DNA from: Vallitalea sp.
Lineage (GTDB): Bacteria; Bacillota; Clostridia; Lachnospirales; Vallitaleaceae
Length of the DNA stretch: 64,000 nucleotides
Assembly (NCBI GenBank): GCA_025210235.1
Contig: JAOASG010000056.1
Location: 1-64,000 of the forward strand
Direction of reading: 5' to 3'
Below are positions 14,201-19,911 of this stretch, in pieces. The notes beneath the pieces are model-generated. The model saw only the letters and a program-made list of their open reading frames with translations. It made no database searches and was not told where the DNA came from. Position numbers and translations under genes: made by a program. The number at the start of each line of letters is the position of its first letter. Position 1 is the stretch's first letter.

Positions 14201-14890
14201 TTAACTTAAAATAATATTTTTCAACTCAATAAACTCTTTGTCTTCAGTATTCCTTTCTTCTCTAGGAATATCAATTTTAAGCCTATTTTTCACTTTTACA
14301 GGTCGTCCATCTAAAATATATATTATATCTGAAATAAGAATAGCCTCATCAATATCATGTGTTACAAAAAGAACCGTTCTATTATCATATTTCCATAAAG
14401 ATAAAAAAGCATTTATAAGTTTTTTCTTTAATTCATAATCCAATCCTTTAAATGGTTCATCCATTAATAAAATATCCGACTCATAAGCGAAAGCCCTTGC
14501 AATAGAAACTCTTTGTTTCATTCCTCCACTTAATTGACTTGGATAATAATTCTTATATTCACTTAGTTGAACTACATCTAAATATCTATTAACTATATCT
14601 GTTATCTCTAGATTATTATTACTTTTTAAGACAAACTTAATATTATCTTCTATAGTTAACCAAGGTAGTAGTCTAGTTTCTTGAAATATATACGAAAAAC
14701 TATCACTTATTCCTGTAATATTACCTTTATCATAATTTTCTATACCTGATAAAATATTTAGTAATGTAGTTTTTCCACAACCTGATGGCCCCAATAAGCA
14801 AATGATTTGCCCATTATCTATTTTTAGATTAAAATCCTCAAATATTTTTAGATTATCATAACTTTTATATAGGTTATTAATTTGTATCAT
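14201..14890 (-). CDS. ABC transporter ATPase (SsuB/TauB/ThiZ type)
   Basis: 229 residues. Walker A is GPSGCGKTT (about 34-42), the Q-loop is IFQETRLLPW, the signature is LSGGMKQR, Walker B is ILLMDEPFKGLD, and the H-loop is FVTHDIDEA. 'QETRLLPW' and 'HDIDEA' are typical of the nitrate/sulfonate/taurine/thiamine-precursor importer group. It is the last gene of a four-gene unit: TM1266-like, binding protein, permease, ATPase. Confidence 0.88.
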   Translation of the reverse strand: MIQINNLYKSYDNLKIFEDFNLKIDNGQIICLLGPSGCGKTTLLNILSGIENYDKGNITGISDSFSYIFQETRLLPWLTIEDNIKFVLKSNNNLEITDIVNRYLDVVQLSEYKNYYPSQLSGGMKQRVSIARAFAYESDILLMDEPFKGLDYELKKKLINAFLSLWKYDNRTVLFVTHDIDEAILISDIIYILDGRPVKVKNRLKIDIPREERNTEDKEFIELKNIILS

Positions 14891-14941: not shown

Positions 14942-15706
14942 TTAGTCATTCCAACTTTTGTGAAATAATCTAATAATATATTTAAATACATATTCAAACA
15001 TTAAACTGAGTATTATTACTACAATTGTCCATGCAAATAATTGAGGAGATTCTAAGTATACCTTTGAGTCTTTTAACTTAGTACCAATTGACAGTTTAGG
15101 TCTACTTAAAACTTCAGCTGCAACTGTTACTTTCCATCCTAATCCTACTGAAGTAATCATTGCTGTTGTTAAATAAGGCATTATAGATGGAATATAGATA
15201 TCTTTTATTATATATCTTTTTTTAACTCTAAATAAATAAGCCATTTCTAGTATTTTTTTATCAACTTGCTTAATTCCTTCAACTACTGCAGTCCATATAA
15301 TTGGTAAACACATTAAAAAACATATAAAGATTGGTACATTACCTGATTTAAACCATAATAAAGTAATTATAATAAATGACATAACTGGAGTTGATTTAAC
15401 AGTTACGATTAGAGGATTAAATAATTCATACATATATGTATTTATACCACATATAATGCCTAAGACAGTCCCTATAACGCAAGATATAATAAAACCTATT
15501 AAAACTCTTAAAATAGTTATTAATACAATTTCCCAAAATTCTTTTACTTGTATCATATTAAATAAAGCATTAAAAGTAGTAAATGGAGAAGGAAGGTATA
15601 GCTCCCTATCAATAATTAGAGCTACTACCTCCCATACTAAAATCCAAAACATTACTGAAAAAACTTTTATTGATTTAGGTCTATTTTTTGTAATAGAAGT
15701 TTTCAT
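14942..15706 (-). CDS. ABC transporter permease (SsuC/ThiX type)
   Basis: 254 residues with about six membrane helices. The cytoplasmic coupling loop EMAYLFRVKKRYIIKDIYIPSIMPYLTTA fits the binding-protein-dependent permease EAA pattern. VGLGWKVTVAAEVLSRPK..IGTKL is a common feature of the SsuC/TauC/ThiX family. It overlaps the end of the binding-protein gene by 26 bases, so the two are coupled. It forms the membrane channel for the adjacent ATPase and lipoprotein. Confidence 0.88.
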   Translation of the reverse strand: MKTSITKNRPKSIKVFSVMFWILVWEVVALIIDRELYLPSPFTTFNALFNMIQVKEFWEIVLITILRVLIGFIISCVIGTVLGIICGINTYMYELFNPLIVTVKSTPVMSFIIITLLWFKSGNVPIFICFLMCLPIIWTAVVEGIKQVDKKILEMAYLFRVKKRYIIKDIYIPSIMPYLTTAMITSVGLGWKVTVAAEVLSRPKLSIGTKLKDSKVYLESPQLFAWTIVVIILSLMFEYVFKYIIRLFHKSWND

Positions 15707-16853
15707 CAGGTAATTTTCCTCCTAATGATTTTGGGTTATATTTAAATAAAACTTTGTAAAAACCTTCTAATGTAGTTTTTGCTTCATCTGAATCCACATA
15801 TACTATATTACAATTTGGAAGAGCAACCTCAGCAATTTTTGCTTTTGGTAATATATTGAATTTCTCAATCAATTTACTAGCCTCTACATGATTAGCATTT
15901 ACCCATTCTATAGATGATTTATATTCCGCTAAAAACTTATCTACAATTTCTTTATTGTCTTGTGCAAATTTTTTATTTACAATAATACAACCCATAGCTA
16001 ATTTACTATCATTACTTTCTAATTGTTCCCATTCCTTTGTTAGATTTAAAGCTATTCTAGCATCTTTATTTTTCATTAGTACAGTTGTTACATGTGGTTG
16101 AGGTAATAAAGCTATTGGCACATCGCCTGCTGCAACAGCCGCTGCTAATTCAGAATGTTGTAATTTATAATCTACTTCTACATCTTGTTTAGGATCAATT
16201 TTATTTTGTTCTAATAAATAATTCAGAACATATTCTGGTGTTGCATTTTGTCCACTAGCAAATATCTTTTTCCCTTTTAAATCTTTAATACTATTTACTG
16301 TATCACCAGTCTCTACTATGTATAATACACCAAGAGTATTTACTGCCGCAAGTTGAACTTCTCCTTTAGTCTTATTATAAAGTATAGATGCTAAATTTGT
16401 TGGAACACAAGCAAATTGGACTTCTCCACTTATTACTTTCCCCATTATTTCTTCAGGACTACCCATAATCATAAATTCAGGTTTTAATTCAGATTCTTTG
16501 TTCTCTACTTGTTCCATTAATTTTGCCATGCCCATTCCTGTTGGTCCTTTTAGAGTTGCTACTTTGAATACTTCATTTTGTTTTACTTCACCTTTAGATT
16601 CTTTATCTTCATCTTTGCCTTGATCTTTGCCTTGATCTTTATCTTGCTCTTTGTCTTCATCTGTTCCTTTTTGTGCATCTTTAATAGTATCTTTTCCGTC
16701 TTTAATCATATCTTTTTGTTGCTCTTTTACATCCTCTAGTTGTTGTTTATAAACATCTTCTTCCACCTTGTCCTTTTTTCCACATGCTGTAAAAGATACG
16801 CATAATAAACAAATAGTTAATATTAGTCCTATTCTTTTTGATAAATTCTTCAT
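15681..16853 (-). CDS. NMT1/SsuA-like substrate-binding lipoprotein with a charged linker
   Basis: 390 residues. The signal peptide ends in a lipobox, CVSFTAC (Cys about 24). Residues about 30-92 form an unusually long linker of Lys, Asp, Gln and Glu with tandem KDQG repeats that will space the domain from the membrane. A type 2 periplasmic-binding fold then follows (FKVATLKGPTGMGMAKLME, LKGKKIFASGQNATPEYVLNYLLE, AAVAAGDVPIALLPQPHVT). GPTGMG resembles ligand loops of thiamine-pyrimidine (NMT1/Thi5-like) and sulfonate binders. The ligand is not settled by sequence. Confidence 0.85.
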   Translation of the reverse strand: MKNLSKRIGLILTICLLCVSFTACGKKDKVEEDVYKQQLEDVKEQQKDMIKDGKDTIKDAQKGTDEDKEQDKDQGKDQGKDEDKESKGEVKQNEVFKVATLKGPTGMGMAKLMEQVENKESELKPEFMIMGSPEEIMGKVISGEVQFACVPTNLASILYNKTKGEVQLAAVNTLGVLYIVETGDTVNSIKDLKGKKIFASGQNATPEYVLNYLLEQNKIDPKQDVEVDYKLQHSELAAAVAAGDVPIALLPQPHVTTVLMKNKDARIALNLTKEWEQLESNDSKLAMGCIIVNKKFAQDNKEIVDKFLAEYKSSIEWVNANHVEASKLIEKFNILPKAKIAEVALPNCNIVYVDSDEAKTTLEGFYKVLFKYNPKSLGGKLPDENFYYKK

Positions 16854-16922: not shown

Positions 16923-17174
16923 TTAAAATTCTCTTTTTGAAATAGAAGTTTTTACTTGAATATTACTTATTTTTCCTAACTTACCGGTAAGACTATTAAT
17001 ATCATTTATCTCACCTACAACTGTAATACAAATAATAGTAACTTCTTCTTCTGTTAAAGGTAGTCCCATTCTCCCTTTAATAAGATGTTTGTAATTTGCT
17101 ACTACCCTATTAAATTCATTCTGATTTTTTTGTGGTTCTTCTAGTATTGCACTTATAACAGCTACTCTTTTCAA
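16923..17174 (-). CDS. TM1266-family putative iron-only hydrogenase system regulator
   Basis: About 83 residues; the start chosen is the TTG at 17174, eight bases after AGGTG, since the ATG at 17195 has no ribosome site. The sequence RVAVISAILEEPQ ... FNRVVANYKHLIKGRMGLPL ... ITVVGEINDINSLTGKLGKI..VQVKTSISK matches the TM1266 family, a small ferredoxin-like/NikR C-terminal-like fold. The family is usually found next to hydrogenase maturation genes, but its function is unproven. Here it leads an ABC importer operon and sits behind a structured leader. It could sense a cofactor or its precursor; that is inference. Confidence 0.8.
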   Translation of the reverse strand: MKRVAVISAILEEPQKNQNEFNRVVANYKHLIKGRMGLPLTEEEVTIICITVVGEINDINSLTGKLGKISNIQVKTSISKREF

Positions 17175-17214
17175 GTTAATCACACCTTTTTTCATTAAAT
17201 TAATCTTAAAACAT

Positions 17215-17239
17215 AAAAACTTCCCTAAAAAGGGAAGTT
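17215..17239 (-). terminator. Leader terminator upstream of the TM1266-ABC operon
   Basis: On the minus strand AACTTCCCT-TTT-AGGGAAGTT is followed by TTTTT, 41 bases before the TTG start. A strong terminator in front of an operon is a hallmark of attenuation. Confidence 0.85.
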
Positions 17240-17340
17240 AAATTCTTAGCTAAAAGGATATTTATCCTTTAATATCAGTATTTATAACTTCCTTTCAGAT
17301 AAGAAATTAATGAATTATTCTTTTCCGTTAGGGTTTAATT
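17215..17340 (-). ncRNA. Structured leader with terminator/antiterminator, TPP-riboswitch-like architecture
   Basis: Read on the minus strand. P1 is UUAAA (17338-17334)/UUUAA (17242-17238). P2 is UAAC (17330-17327)/GUUA (17288-17285). A P3 arm follows, and a junction, CUGAAA (17298-17293), stands where TPP aptamers have CUGAGA. Then UACUGAU is followed by a hairpin AAAGGAU/AUCCUUU (17270-17253) and UAGCUAAGAA, in the places of CCUGAU, P5 and CAGCGUAGGGA. The GGAAGUUA strand (17292-17285) is perfectly complementary to UAACUUCC (17240-17233), the 5' half of a terminator AACUUCCCU/AGGGAAGUU plus T's. Ligand-stabilised P2 would release the terminator, as in TPP OFF switches. Key TPP bases differ, so it is either a variant or a convergent leader. 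Confidence 0.5.
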
Positions 17341-17446
17341 ATTAATTATATGACTGATAAAAGATCATTTCTAATATCAATCATTAATATTTTACCACTA
17401 ATATTATATTTTTTCAATATTATTATATGGAATATTCAGGGTATCA

Positions 17447-17497: not shown

Positions 17498-18679
17498 CTA
17501 AATTAAAGAATAAGCATCTTTCATTCTCTTTAGTACTTTTTCCAATAATAATCTTGAAGTAGCAATATTAACTCTTATAAAACCTTTACCATCTTCACCA
17601 AATGAAGAACCCATATTAACTTGTACATTTGCTTCTTCAAGAAACCATTTTTCAAGTTCCTTTTCAGAAATATTTAGCTTTTCATAATTAATCCATAAAA
17701 GGTAAGTACCTTCCCTTGGCATTACTTCAAATTTAGGCATATATTTTAATATATAATCGCGAACCATTTTATCATTATTATCAATATAGGCACAAACATC
17801 TTTTAACCAATCATCACAATAATTATATCCTGCTTCAATTGCTGCAAGTGAAAAAATATTAGGATTATGTATTCCAATACGGTCAATATCATTAGCCACT
17901 TTCGTACGAATTTCATTATTTGGAATAATCATATATGAAACAATTATTCCTGGCACATTAAATGTTTTTGTTATAGAATTAGCACATATAAGATAATCTT
18001 GTATATCACCTTCGATTTGTAGTATACTAGTGTGAGTTAAATTTTTAGCTAAAAAATTAGCATGTATTTCATCAACAAATAAATAAATCTTATGTTTAAT
18101 ACAAAATGTAGCTAGTTGTTCAATTTCATCTCTTGTCCAAACTCTTCCTGTTGGATTATGAGGATTACATAAAATAAACATTTTTGTGTTTTCATCGACA
18201 ATAGATTCCAATTGTTCAAAATCAATACAAAAATGATCCTCTTTAAACGTCAATGGACTTTCAATAATAACGCGGTTATTTTTAATAATAGCATCACATA
18301 AAGGTGAATATGCAGGTGTATTAATAATTACTTTATCATTAGTTTCTGTAAGGCTATTTATACAGATTCCCGCGGCAATATTAATTCTAGAACAAAAAAC
18401 AATCCACTCTTCTGGTATAGTAACACCATTATATTTTTTTATCCAACGTTGAATACTAGTATAAAAAGCGTCATTTAAATCAGTATATCCAAATATTCCA
18501 TTCTCTATTACTTGCGAAAATGCGTCAATAATTGGCTTAGGGGACCTAAAGTCCATATCGGCTACCCCTAAATGAATTAAATCATTTCTACCATATTTTT
18601 TTGCCATTGTATCCCACTTTGCACAATTAGTATTCCTTCTATCGATAATTTCATCAAAATCTGTTAAAAATGTAGACAT
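17498..18679 (-). CDS. patB: MalY/PatB-type PLP aminotransferase (probable cystathionine beta-lyase)
   Basis: 393 residues, fold-type I PLP enzyme. The PLP Lys is K238 in SITKTFNVPG; D203 (VDEIHANF) contacts the pyridine N; NPHNPTGRVWT is the substrate region. The N-terminus NCAKWDTMAKKYG..DLIHLGVADMDF is diagnostic of the PatB/MalY group, C-S lyases releasing homocysteine or H2S, pyruvate and ammonia. It is downstream of an M20 amidohydrolase gene in the same direction with a 77-base gap that carries a family-2 repeat. Together they may remove acyl groups and cleave C-S bonds of cysteine conjugates; this pairing is inference. Confidence 0.88.
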   Translation of the reverse strand: MSTFLTDFDEIIDRRNTNCAKWDTMAKKYGRNDLIHLGVADMDFRSPKPIIDAFSQVIENGIFGYTDLNDAFYTSIQRWIKKYNGVTIPEEWIVFCSRINIAAGICINSLTETNDKVIINTPAYSPLCDAIIKNNRVIIESPLTFKEDHFCIDFEQLESIVDENTKMFILCNPHNPTGRVWTRDEIEQLATFCIKHKIYLFVDEIHANFLAKNLTHTSILQIEGDIQDYLICANSITKTFNVPGIIVSYMIIPNNEIRTKVANDIDRIGIHNPNIFSLAAIEAGYNYCDDWLKDVCAYIDNNDKMVRDYILKYMPKFEVMPREGTYLLWINYEKLNISEKELEKWFLEEANVQVNMGSSFGEDGKGFIRVNIATSRLLLEKVLKRMKDAYSLI

Positions 18680-18709
18680 ATTATTTATTCCTTTCTTTGT
18701 ATTTATAAA

Positions 18710-18747
18710 GTAATTGCAAAACTACATTCAGTTGATTCTTTAATACA
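18710..18747. repeat. Half copy of repeat family 2
   Basis: 38 bases, beginning GTAATTGC-AAACTACATT, match 6732-6769 with three mismatches. It occupies the intergenic gap of the M20-patB unit. The second, complementary half of the hairpin is missing. Confidence 0.6.
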
Positions 18748-18756
18748 CTCAATTAA

Positions 18757-19911
18757 CTAATTAGATAATGCCTCTAATGCATATTGTGCATATAGCTTAC
18801 TACCAAGTTCTAATGCCTTTTCATCTATTTGAAAACATTCATGATGAAGAGGATAATATGTATCTGGCGTTCCGTCCCATACGCCCAAAAAAGCAAGAAC
18901 CCCTGGAACTTTTTCTAAGTAACGTGAAAAATCTTCTGAAGTTGTGATTTGAGGCTTAGTACAAAGAGCTTGTTCATCTGCGATTTTGATAACTGCATTT
19001 TTAGCAATTTCGCTACAACATTCATCGTTAATTACAGGCAGAAGAGACTTTTTATAGTCAAGTTCTGCTGTTGTATTATACATCTGCGCAGTATTCGTAG
19101 AAATTCTAAGCAACGCTTCCTTAAAATAATCCTTTAAATCAGAATTAAAATATCTTAGATTACCAGATAAAACTGCTTCTGACGCTAAAATATTTCTCTT
19201 AACTCCAGAGTTAAATTCACCTACAGTTATAACTACAGCGTCCAAAGGATTAATTTCACGAGATACAATCTCTTGTAAATTAACTACAAGGTTAGCTCCT
19301 ACCAAAAGAGCATCTGTGCCTAAGTGAGGCATAGCTCCATGTCCTCCACTTCCTGTTATTGTTATAGTAAAATCATCAACACCCGCCATTCGTGGACCAC
19401 TTTCAACAGATATTTTTCCTGTTGGAAGATCAGTCATTACATGAATAGCAAAAATAGAATCTACATTATCTAAAAATCCACTTGCAATTATTTCTTTAGT
19501 AGCTTCACTAGTTTCTTCAGCAGGCTGAAAAATTACTTTTATACATCCATTAATATCTTCTTTATTTTCATTAAGAATTTTAACTGCCCCAAGTAACATA
19601 GCAGTATGAGCATCGTGTCCACATGCATGCATTACACCACTATTTTTAGATTTATAACTAACTTCATTTTTTTCTTTTATAGGAAGTGCGTCAATATCAG
19701 CTCGTAAAGCAACAGTCTTTCCTTTTTTACCTTGAATTGTTGCAACAACTCCTGTTTCACAAATAGTATAGTAAGGAACACCAATAGCTTCTAATTCTTT
19801 AATAATCCTTTTACTAGTATTAAACTCTTTTAAGCTTAACTCTGGATTTTGGTGAAAATAACGTCTAAGATTTGTTACATATTCTCCGAGTTCAAAAGAT
19901 AAATCTTTCAA
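18757..19911 (-). CDS. M20-family amidohydrolase (hippurate hydrolase/N-acyl amino acid type)
   Basis: 384 residues. Metal ligands are in HACGHDAHTAMLLGA (about residues 95-109), VIFQPAEETSEA (Glu pair) and HHECFQIDE near the C-terminus; GSGGHGAMPHLGTDAL marks the dimerisation/lid domain. It hydrolyses N-acyl amino acids or related amides in the cytoplasm. The start is TTG at 19911, preceded by AAAGGAGATG. It precedes the patB-like gene, suggesting use of S-conjugates or N-acetylated substrates. NAC-diaminopimelate deacetylase is an alternative within the family. Confidence 0.88.
   Translation of the reverse strand: MKDLSFELGEYVTNLRRYFHQNPELSLKEFNTSKRIIKELEAIGVPYYTICETGVVATIQGKKGKTVALRADIDALPIKEKNEVSYKSKNSGVMHACGHDAHTAMLLGAVKILNENKEDINGCIKVIFQPAEETSEATKEIIASGFLDNVDSIFAIHVMTDLPTGKISVESGPRMAGVDDFTITITGSGGHGAMPHLGTDALLVGANLVVNLQEIVSREINPLDAVVITVGEFNSGVKRNILASEAVLSGNLRYFNSDLKDYFKEALLRISTNTAQMYNTTAELDYKKSLLPVINDECCSEIAKNAVIKIADEQALCTKPQITTSEDFSRYLEKVPGVLAFLGVWDGTPDTYYPLHHECFQIDEKALELGSKLYAQYALEALSN

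Follow-up and report, generated by a model that had tools for sequence, protein, structure and literature searches.

What kind of RNA precedes the TM1266 and ABC importer genes of this locus, and which genes does it serve elsewhere? The window, i.e. the whole 64,000-nucleotide stretch of Vallitalea sp. DNA that was analysed, had been described in a first-pass annotation as carrying an orphan leader with a TPP-riboswitch-like three-way junction at positions 17215-17340. A structured orphan leader with an intrinsic terminator before a TM1266-ABC importer operon was found on the minus strand; the TPP-like three-way junction was not, and the leader is longer than that annotation had it, reaching from about 17383 to 17208 between a PatB-like C-S lyase gene on one side and the TM1266 gene on the other. 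With a probability of roughly 0.6, this leader is an orphan riboswitch-like attenuator of a regulon for the maturation of the [FeFe]-hydrogenase H-cluster. The regulon and the architecture of the element are well supported; conservation, covariation, genomic context and the overlap of three helices were established computationally.

Relatives were collected with the TM1266 protein as query, and the upstream regions of the TM1266 genes were compared within the genus, with a further genus of the same family and with two more families of the order. These regions share a block in which a hairpin is followed by a linker (about 20 nt) and then, in L012, by CGCCCUAACAGACGAGAGAUGUCUUAUCUGAAAGGAAGUUAU and a terminator. 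A covariance model built from five leaders (R1) was searched over 392 genomes of the order, a second covariance model (R2) over 391 genomes of the class and a model of the second hairpin only (R3) over 398 genomes of the phylum. Additionally, an exact sequence pattern, in which some bases of the second hairpin were fixed and pairing was not demanded, was run over about 85,000 genomes. R1 gave matches in 13 genomes, all located before hydrogenase maturation genes except one weak match inside a coding gene, and it recovered L011, which had been left out of its construction. A 14-base pattern with 2 mismatches was dropped as too unspecific. L068, L102, L114 and L122 were rejected as chance matches (inside a coding gene or in foreign context, with no or a weak model score), and L080, L081 and weak R3 matches in the phylum above E 0.003 were treated as chance, except those before hyd genes. 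After removal of duplicates and chance matches, 73 distinct sites in Bacillota were retained, nearly all of them from the gene-blind RNA models or the pattern. R1 was seeded with sequence from upstream of TM1266 genes, but no gene information entered the models or the pattern, and the context of the later matches (hydE, hydF, hydG, aspA, importers) is therefore independent evidence.

Directly downstream of 62 of the 73 sites lie H-cluster maturation genes (hydE, hydF, hydG, TM1266 or aspA-hydF). The arrangements are TM1266-hydE (20 sites), TM1266-hydG (15), hydG first (10, counting hydG operons in which TM1266 comes later), hydE first (8), aspA-hydF (5), TM1266-hydF (2), TM1266-aspA-hydF-hydE (1) and hydF first (1). 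The gene that most often comes first behind the leader is TM1266. The identity of HydE, HydF and HydG was checked at equivalog level on representatives, and the others were named by similarity to these. In the phylum sample, all 14 other genomes with an R3 match at E<=0.0025 carry hyd genes next to it. The genome of the window itself has two strong copies only, the leader described here (39.3 bits) and one before hydE-hydG-hydF (38.2 bits), the next match scoring 15.6 bits. Aspartate ammonia-lyase stands between leader and hydF in L113, L117, L119, L120 and L121 (Acetobacterium) and in L093, which suggests that the metabolism of ammonia or aspartate is part of H-cluster maturation.

Six sites precede SsuABC/NMT1-type importers (the window, L085, L083, L089, L097 and L109). 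L085 shows the exact gene order of the window, TM1266, substrate-binding protein (SBP), permease and ATPase, in a different family, and the two SBPs are 47% identical. Another importer of the SsuABC type, with an SBP (SBP2) that is 60-64% identical between lineages, stands under the leader in L089/L161, L097 and L109, and directly behind hydE with the same leader type in L086/L163. Moreover, the leader precedes genes for a NifH-like protein, two nitrogenase component 1-like proteins, a periplasmic binding protein, a FecCD permease, an ATPase and HydE in L074/L159 (G458:C59), an unusual operon which may make or use an H-cluster-like cofactor, and genes for TM1266, a membrane protein and NADH-linked hydrogenase-type subunits in L076/L160. 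At three sites the available sequence ends before the downstream genes. Descent of the leader with the ABC operon was considered and rejected: orthologous SBP operons at 29 other loci are without TM1266, and no such leader was seen there by eye. The leader thus goes with the hyd/TM1266 genes rather than with the ABC operon. Among 295 genomes the SBP family of the window was not associated with hydG (odds ratio 0.78, p 0.29), and the importer therefore need not carry an H-cluster precursor.

The conserved RNA revealed by the gene-anchored comparison and the covariance models consists of two hairpins, P1 and P2, joined by a linker of about 13-64 nt across sites. The features of the window leader and the genes behind it are listed in the table. 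The leader folds more stably than shuffled sequence (z -3.4), and its terminator is the only terminator-like site in it, 0.1 being expected by shuffling.

Table. Features of the leader and of the downstream genes in the window
Feature	Position	Strand	Basis
Promoter-like site TTGAAA-17-TAAAAT, extended TG	17389..17417	-	Consensus scan; count not above chance
P1 hairpin GAUUGAUA-UUAGA-AAUGA-UCUUU-UAUCAGUC	17352..17382	-	Full-length R1 match (window leader is one of the five sequences from which R1 was built)
P2 conserved core	17291..17332	-	R3 39.3 bits, E 2.1e-9; covariation
P2 strands CCU, AA, CGGA ... UCUG, AA, AGG	CCU 17332-17330; CGGA 17327-17324; UCUG 17299-17296; AGG 17293-17291	-	
Antiterminator 5' strand GGAAGUUAUAAAU, overlapping the P2 3' end	17280..17292	-	Sequence; fold of transcript truncated at 17229; duplex test, 54 loci
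Variable hairpin AAAGGAUAAAUAUCCUUU, inside antiterminator	17253..17270	-	Fold; sequence not conserved
Antiterminator 3' strand AUUUAACUUCC = terminator 5' arm	17233..17243	-	Sequence; fold
Intrinsic terminator AACUUCCCUUUUUAGGGAAGUU, then UUUAUGUUUU	17218..17239	-	Terminator scan
TM1266-family protein	16923..17195	-	PF21699 80 bits; TIGR03959 87 bits over cut-off
ABC substrate-binding lipoprotein (SBP), NMT1/SsuA-like	15681..16853	-	Family profile matches; homologues
ABC permease	14942..15706	-	PF00528
ABC ATPase	14201..14890	-	PF00005

The tip of P1, a hairpin of about 14 pairs, is conserved as GAGA...UCUU, and the hairpin is located just 3' of a promoter-like element; a similar TAAAATATTAAC is found directly 5' of P1 in relatives, and the consensus promoter scan puts the predicted transcription start of the window at about 17382, at the foot of P1. 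The flanks of P1 vary while pairing is kept. In the family 90.7% of cells are paired, a percentage biased by the fact that P1 sequences were picked for hairpin formation, and 104 double-change cells were counted vs 31.7 in shuffled alignments, the compensatory changes and the constant tip being less affected by that bias. P1-type hairpins with the conserved tip occur in 28 of 56 upstream regions vs 0.05 expected, and P1 was not found at all sites.

The consensus of P2 reads CCU, two A-rich bases, CNNA, AA, AGA, a variable loop, UCU, RA, UNNG, RA and AGG, i.e. short helices with A-rich 2x2 internal loops between them. Conservation extends to these loops and hence to unpaired positions, and the tip loops vary in length and sequence. 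In an alignment of 48 distinct P2 cores made by MAFFT without structure information, 97.3% of cells are paired, slid structures pairing at most 52.8%, and 27 double-change cells were found vs 6.2 in shuffled alignments, a number reached by none of 500 shuffles. One alignment (A4) held antisense matches and was left out of covariation. The second pair of P2c occurs as A-U, G-C, C-G and G-U, and pairs 7-36, 8-35 and 14-29 gave E values of 0, 0.017 and 0.033 under a home-made tree-based null. Pairing in the outer helix P2a is poor in the window, though good in many relatives. As separate observations, two P2 motifs stand in tandem 456 nt apart at G1118:C1:2738112 and 2738568, followed by TM1266 and hydG, and in the window the P1 3' arm UCUUU (P1 17382-17352) is complementary to AAAGA on the 5' side of P2 (17324-17319), a possible alternative pairing between the hairpins.

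The CUGAAA string and the preceding UUCUUA, read before as core and P1, belong to another covarying hairpin, in which they make up the 3' strand and CCUAACGGA (17332-17324) the 5' strand. Neither the claimed P1 (UUCUUA/UAAGAA) nor the UAGCUAAGAA segment is conserved among homologues, and the segments likened to CUGAGA and CAGCGUAGGGA in a three-way junction proved to be parts of P2 or unconserved. Covarying homologues, whose absence the first-pass annotation had named as a refutation of its reading, are numerous.

The switching proposal of that annotation has fared better. The 3' strand of P2 with its extension, GGAAGUUA (17292-17285), is the exact complement of UAACUUCC (17240-17233) in the terminator 5' arm, and aptamer-like folding and antitermination were correctly described as mutually exclusive, the conserved 3' strand competing with the terminator for that arm. 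Almost every attenuator-type site is followed by a terminator. In most sites its 5' arm is of the AACUUUCC type, the distance is 20-150 nt, and the P2 3' strand is able to pair with that arm. In a duplex test of 54 loci, the P2 3' strand and terminator arm of the same locus paired with -9.8 kcal/mol vs -7.2 kcal/mol for swapped strands. For the window transcript before the terminator closes, the antiterminator is favoured by 2.8 kcal/mol over the fold with the lower P2 helix, and for the full-length transcript P2 plus terminator is favoured by 2.1 kcal/mol; such close calculated energies of the alternative states would be as expected of a switch. The overlap of P2 and antiterminator in the window comprises two G-C pairs and an AU-rich extension only. 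In L101, L108, L140, L142, L143 and L149 the P2 strand (GAAAGGA-type) lies 4-17 nt before a start codon and is likely the Shine-Dalgarno sequence. We infer the direction of the switch from this double use: because the 3' strand of P2 doubles as antiterminator strand, or as Shine-Dalgarno sequence in some relatives, formation of P2 likely means gene OFF, and both platforms lead to the same prediction.

In the proposed mechanism, transcription would start at the foot of P1 and P2 would fold next. If P2 were stabilised by a putative ligand, its 3' strand GGAAGUU would be held, the terminator would form and the operon would be OFF; if P2 were not stabilised, GGAAGUUAUAAAU would pair with AUUUAACUUCC, the terminator would be blocked, and TM1266 and the ABC importer would be transcribed. 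The role of P1 is putative. The ligand is most likely a small molecule, as suggested by the several transporter types in the regulon, and the best candidate would be one tied to H-cluster assembly or brought in by the importers. The narrower proposal of a new riboswitch class, with a metabolite of H-cluster biosynthesis or a nutrient feeding it as ligand, is put forward tentatively, at slightly less than even odds.

Alternatively, the leader could be bound by a regulatory protein. The likeliest is TM1266, whose stabilisation of P2 (or of the antiterminator) would amount to autoregulation of the maturation regulon. TM1266, annotated as a putative regulator of the hydrogenase system, is the commonest first gene behind the leader, and 19 of the 20 leader genomes have the protein; a dimeric protein would fit a pair of hairpins that have similar GAGA/UCUU tips and are joined by a linker of variable length. 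However, in one leader genome, G1022 (94% complete), no TM1266 was found, the homologues of L004, L005 and L006, about 70% identical to that of the window and encoded behind membrane-protein genes, have no recognisable leader, and several unrelated transporter types fit a nutrient-like ligand better. To our knowledge no RNA-binding activity is known for the TM1266 fold, of which 2nzc is the nearest solved relative, and this also counts against a TM1266 target, which we regard as less likely than a small-molecule ligand but as a serious rival to it.

A reading without any ligand-sensing RNA, in which P1 serves as a DNA operator at the promoter and what follows is an ordinary constitutive attenuator, would agree with the palindromic nature of P1 and its place at the predicted transcription start. 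This is improbable given that the sequence of P1 varies widely with pairing kept, and that a constitutive element would have no need of the conservation seen in P2, which includes unpaired positions and holds for attenuator and Shine-Dalgarno platforms alike.

Target RNAs of ANTAR-domain antiterminators (EutV type) consist of two consecutive hairpins before a terminator, the second overlapping the expression platform, and the element resembles them in these two hairpins, their variable linker and that overlap. The genome of the window encodes one ANTAR protein. In contrast to ANTAR targets, hexaloops with conserved A1 and G4 on both hairpins are absent, the loops differing in length and sequence, and conservation sits in internal loops. 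No ANTAR protein was found in 9 of 20 leader genomes, several of them single-contig or nearly complete, which rules out ANTAR proteins as the general partner and makes such a target very improbable in any case. A degenerate TPP riboswitch, or one with an altered pyrimidine pocket for HMP and similar ligands, shares with the leader a superficial CUGAAA/CUGAU string likeness, the position before an NMT1-type importer and OFF logic via terminator release, but is ruled out by sequence and structure: RF00059 (Rfam 15) gave no match at gathering or at E<=10 in the window leader and none at E<=1 in seven homologous loci, three-way junction and TPP core bases are missing, the P2 fold is different, and the gene partners are those of H-cluster maturation, not thiamine genes.

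BglG/LicT-type RAT hairpins are short, with conserved internal loops, and lie near a terminator. The element is likewise a short hairpin with conserved internal loops and a nearby terminator, but its P2 competes with an antiterminator, not with the terminator, and its genes are not PTS sugar operons. The NMT1 motif is a xanthine/uric acid riboswitch (PMC7373994) and the thiS motif an HMP-PP riboswitch (PMC6478431). Both are small leader RNAs from comparative genomics, some before NMT1-type proteins; the element differs from them in consensus and genes. At gathering, no Rfam 15 family matches the element in the window or in 11 homologous loci, and at E 1 none matches it in seven member loci. 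No description was found in the openly readable full-text literature on hydrogenase maturation, genome-scale ncRNA discovery, orphan riboswitches (review) and the Acetobacterium bakii leaders. The element is thus apparently previously undescribed; a prior description is possible.

The neighbourhood offers some further observations. Homologues suggest UUG at 17174 as the true start of TM1266. Directly downstream of the ABC operon, a glycine riboswitch (RF00504, 69.6 bits, 13951-13859, minus strand) precedes an AgcS-type amino acid carrier gene. Upstream of the leader, on the same strand, a PatB-family C-S lyase and an M20-type amidohydrolase are encoded (17498-19911), which together with the SsuA-like importer could form a cluster for the salvage of sulfur compounds.

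Assembling the H-cluster of [FeFe]-hydrogenases is costly, yet its control in bacteria is poorly understood, and no RNA regulator of this assembly was found described. A compact conserved RNA before hydE, hydF, hydG and TM1266 in many Bacillota makes that control testable, and it provides a handle on the role of TM1266 and on the substrate of the importers that share the leader. If the ligand is a small molecule, it would name a metabolite of the H-cluster pathway which cells actually monitor. Should the element represent a new riboswitch class with such a ligand, an RNA sensor for the assembly of an organometallic hydrogenase cofactor would be known for the first time, and the H-cluster pathway would gain links to two unrelated SsuABC-type importers, a small membrane protein and a nitrogenase-like/HydE operon.
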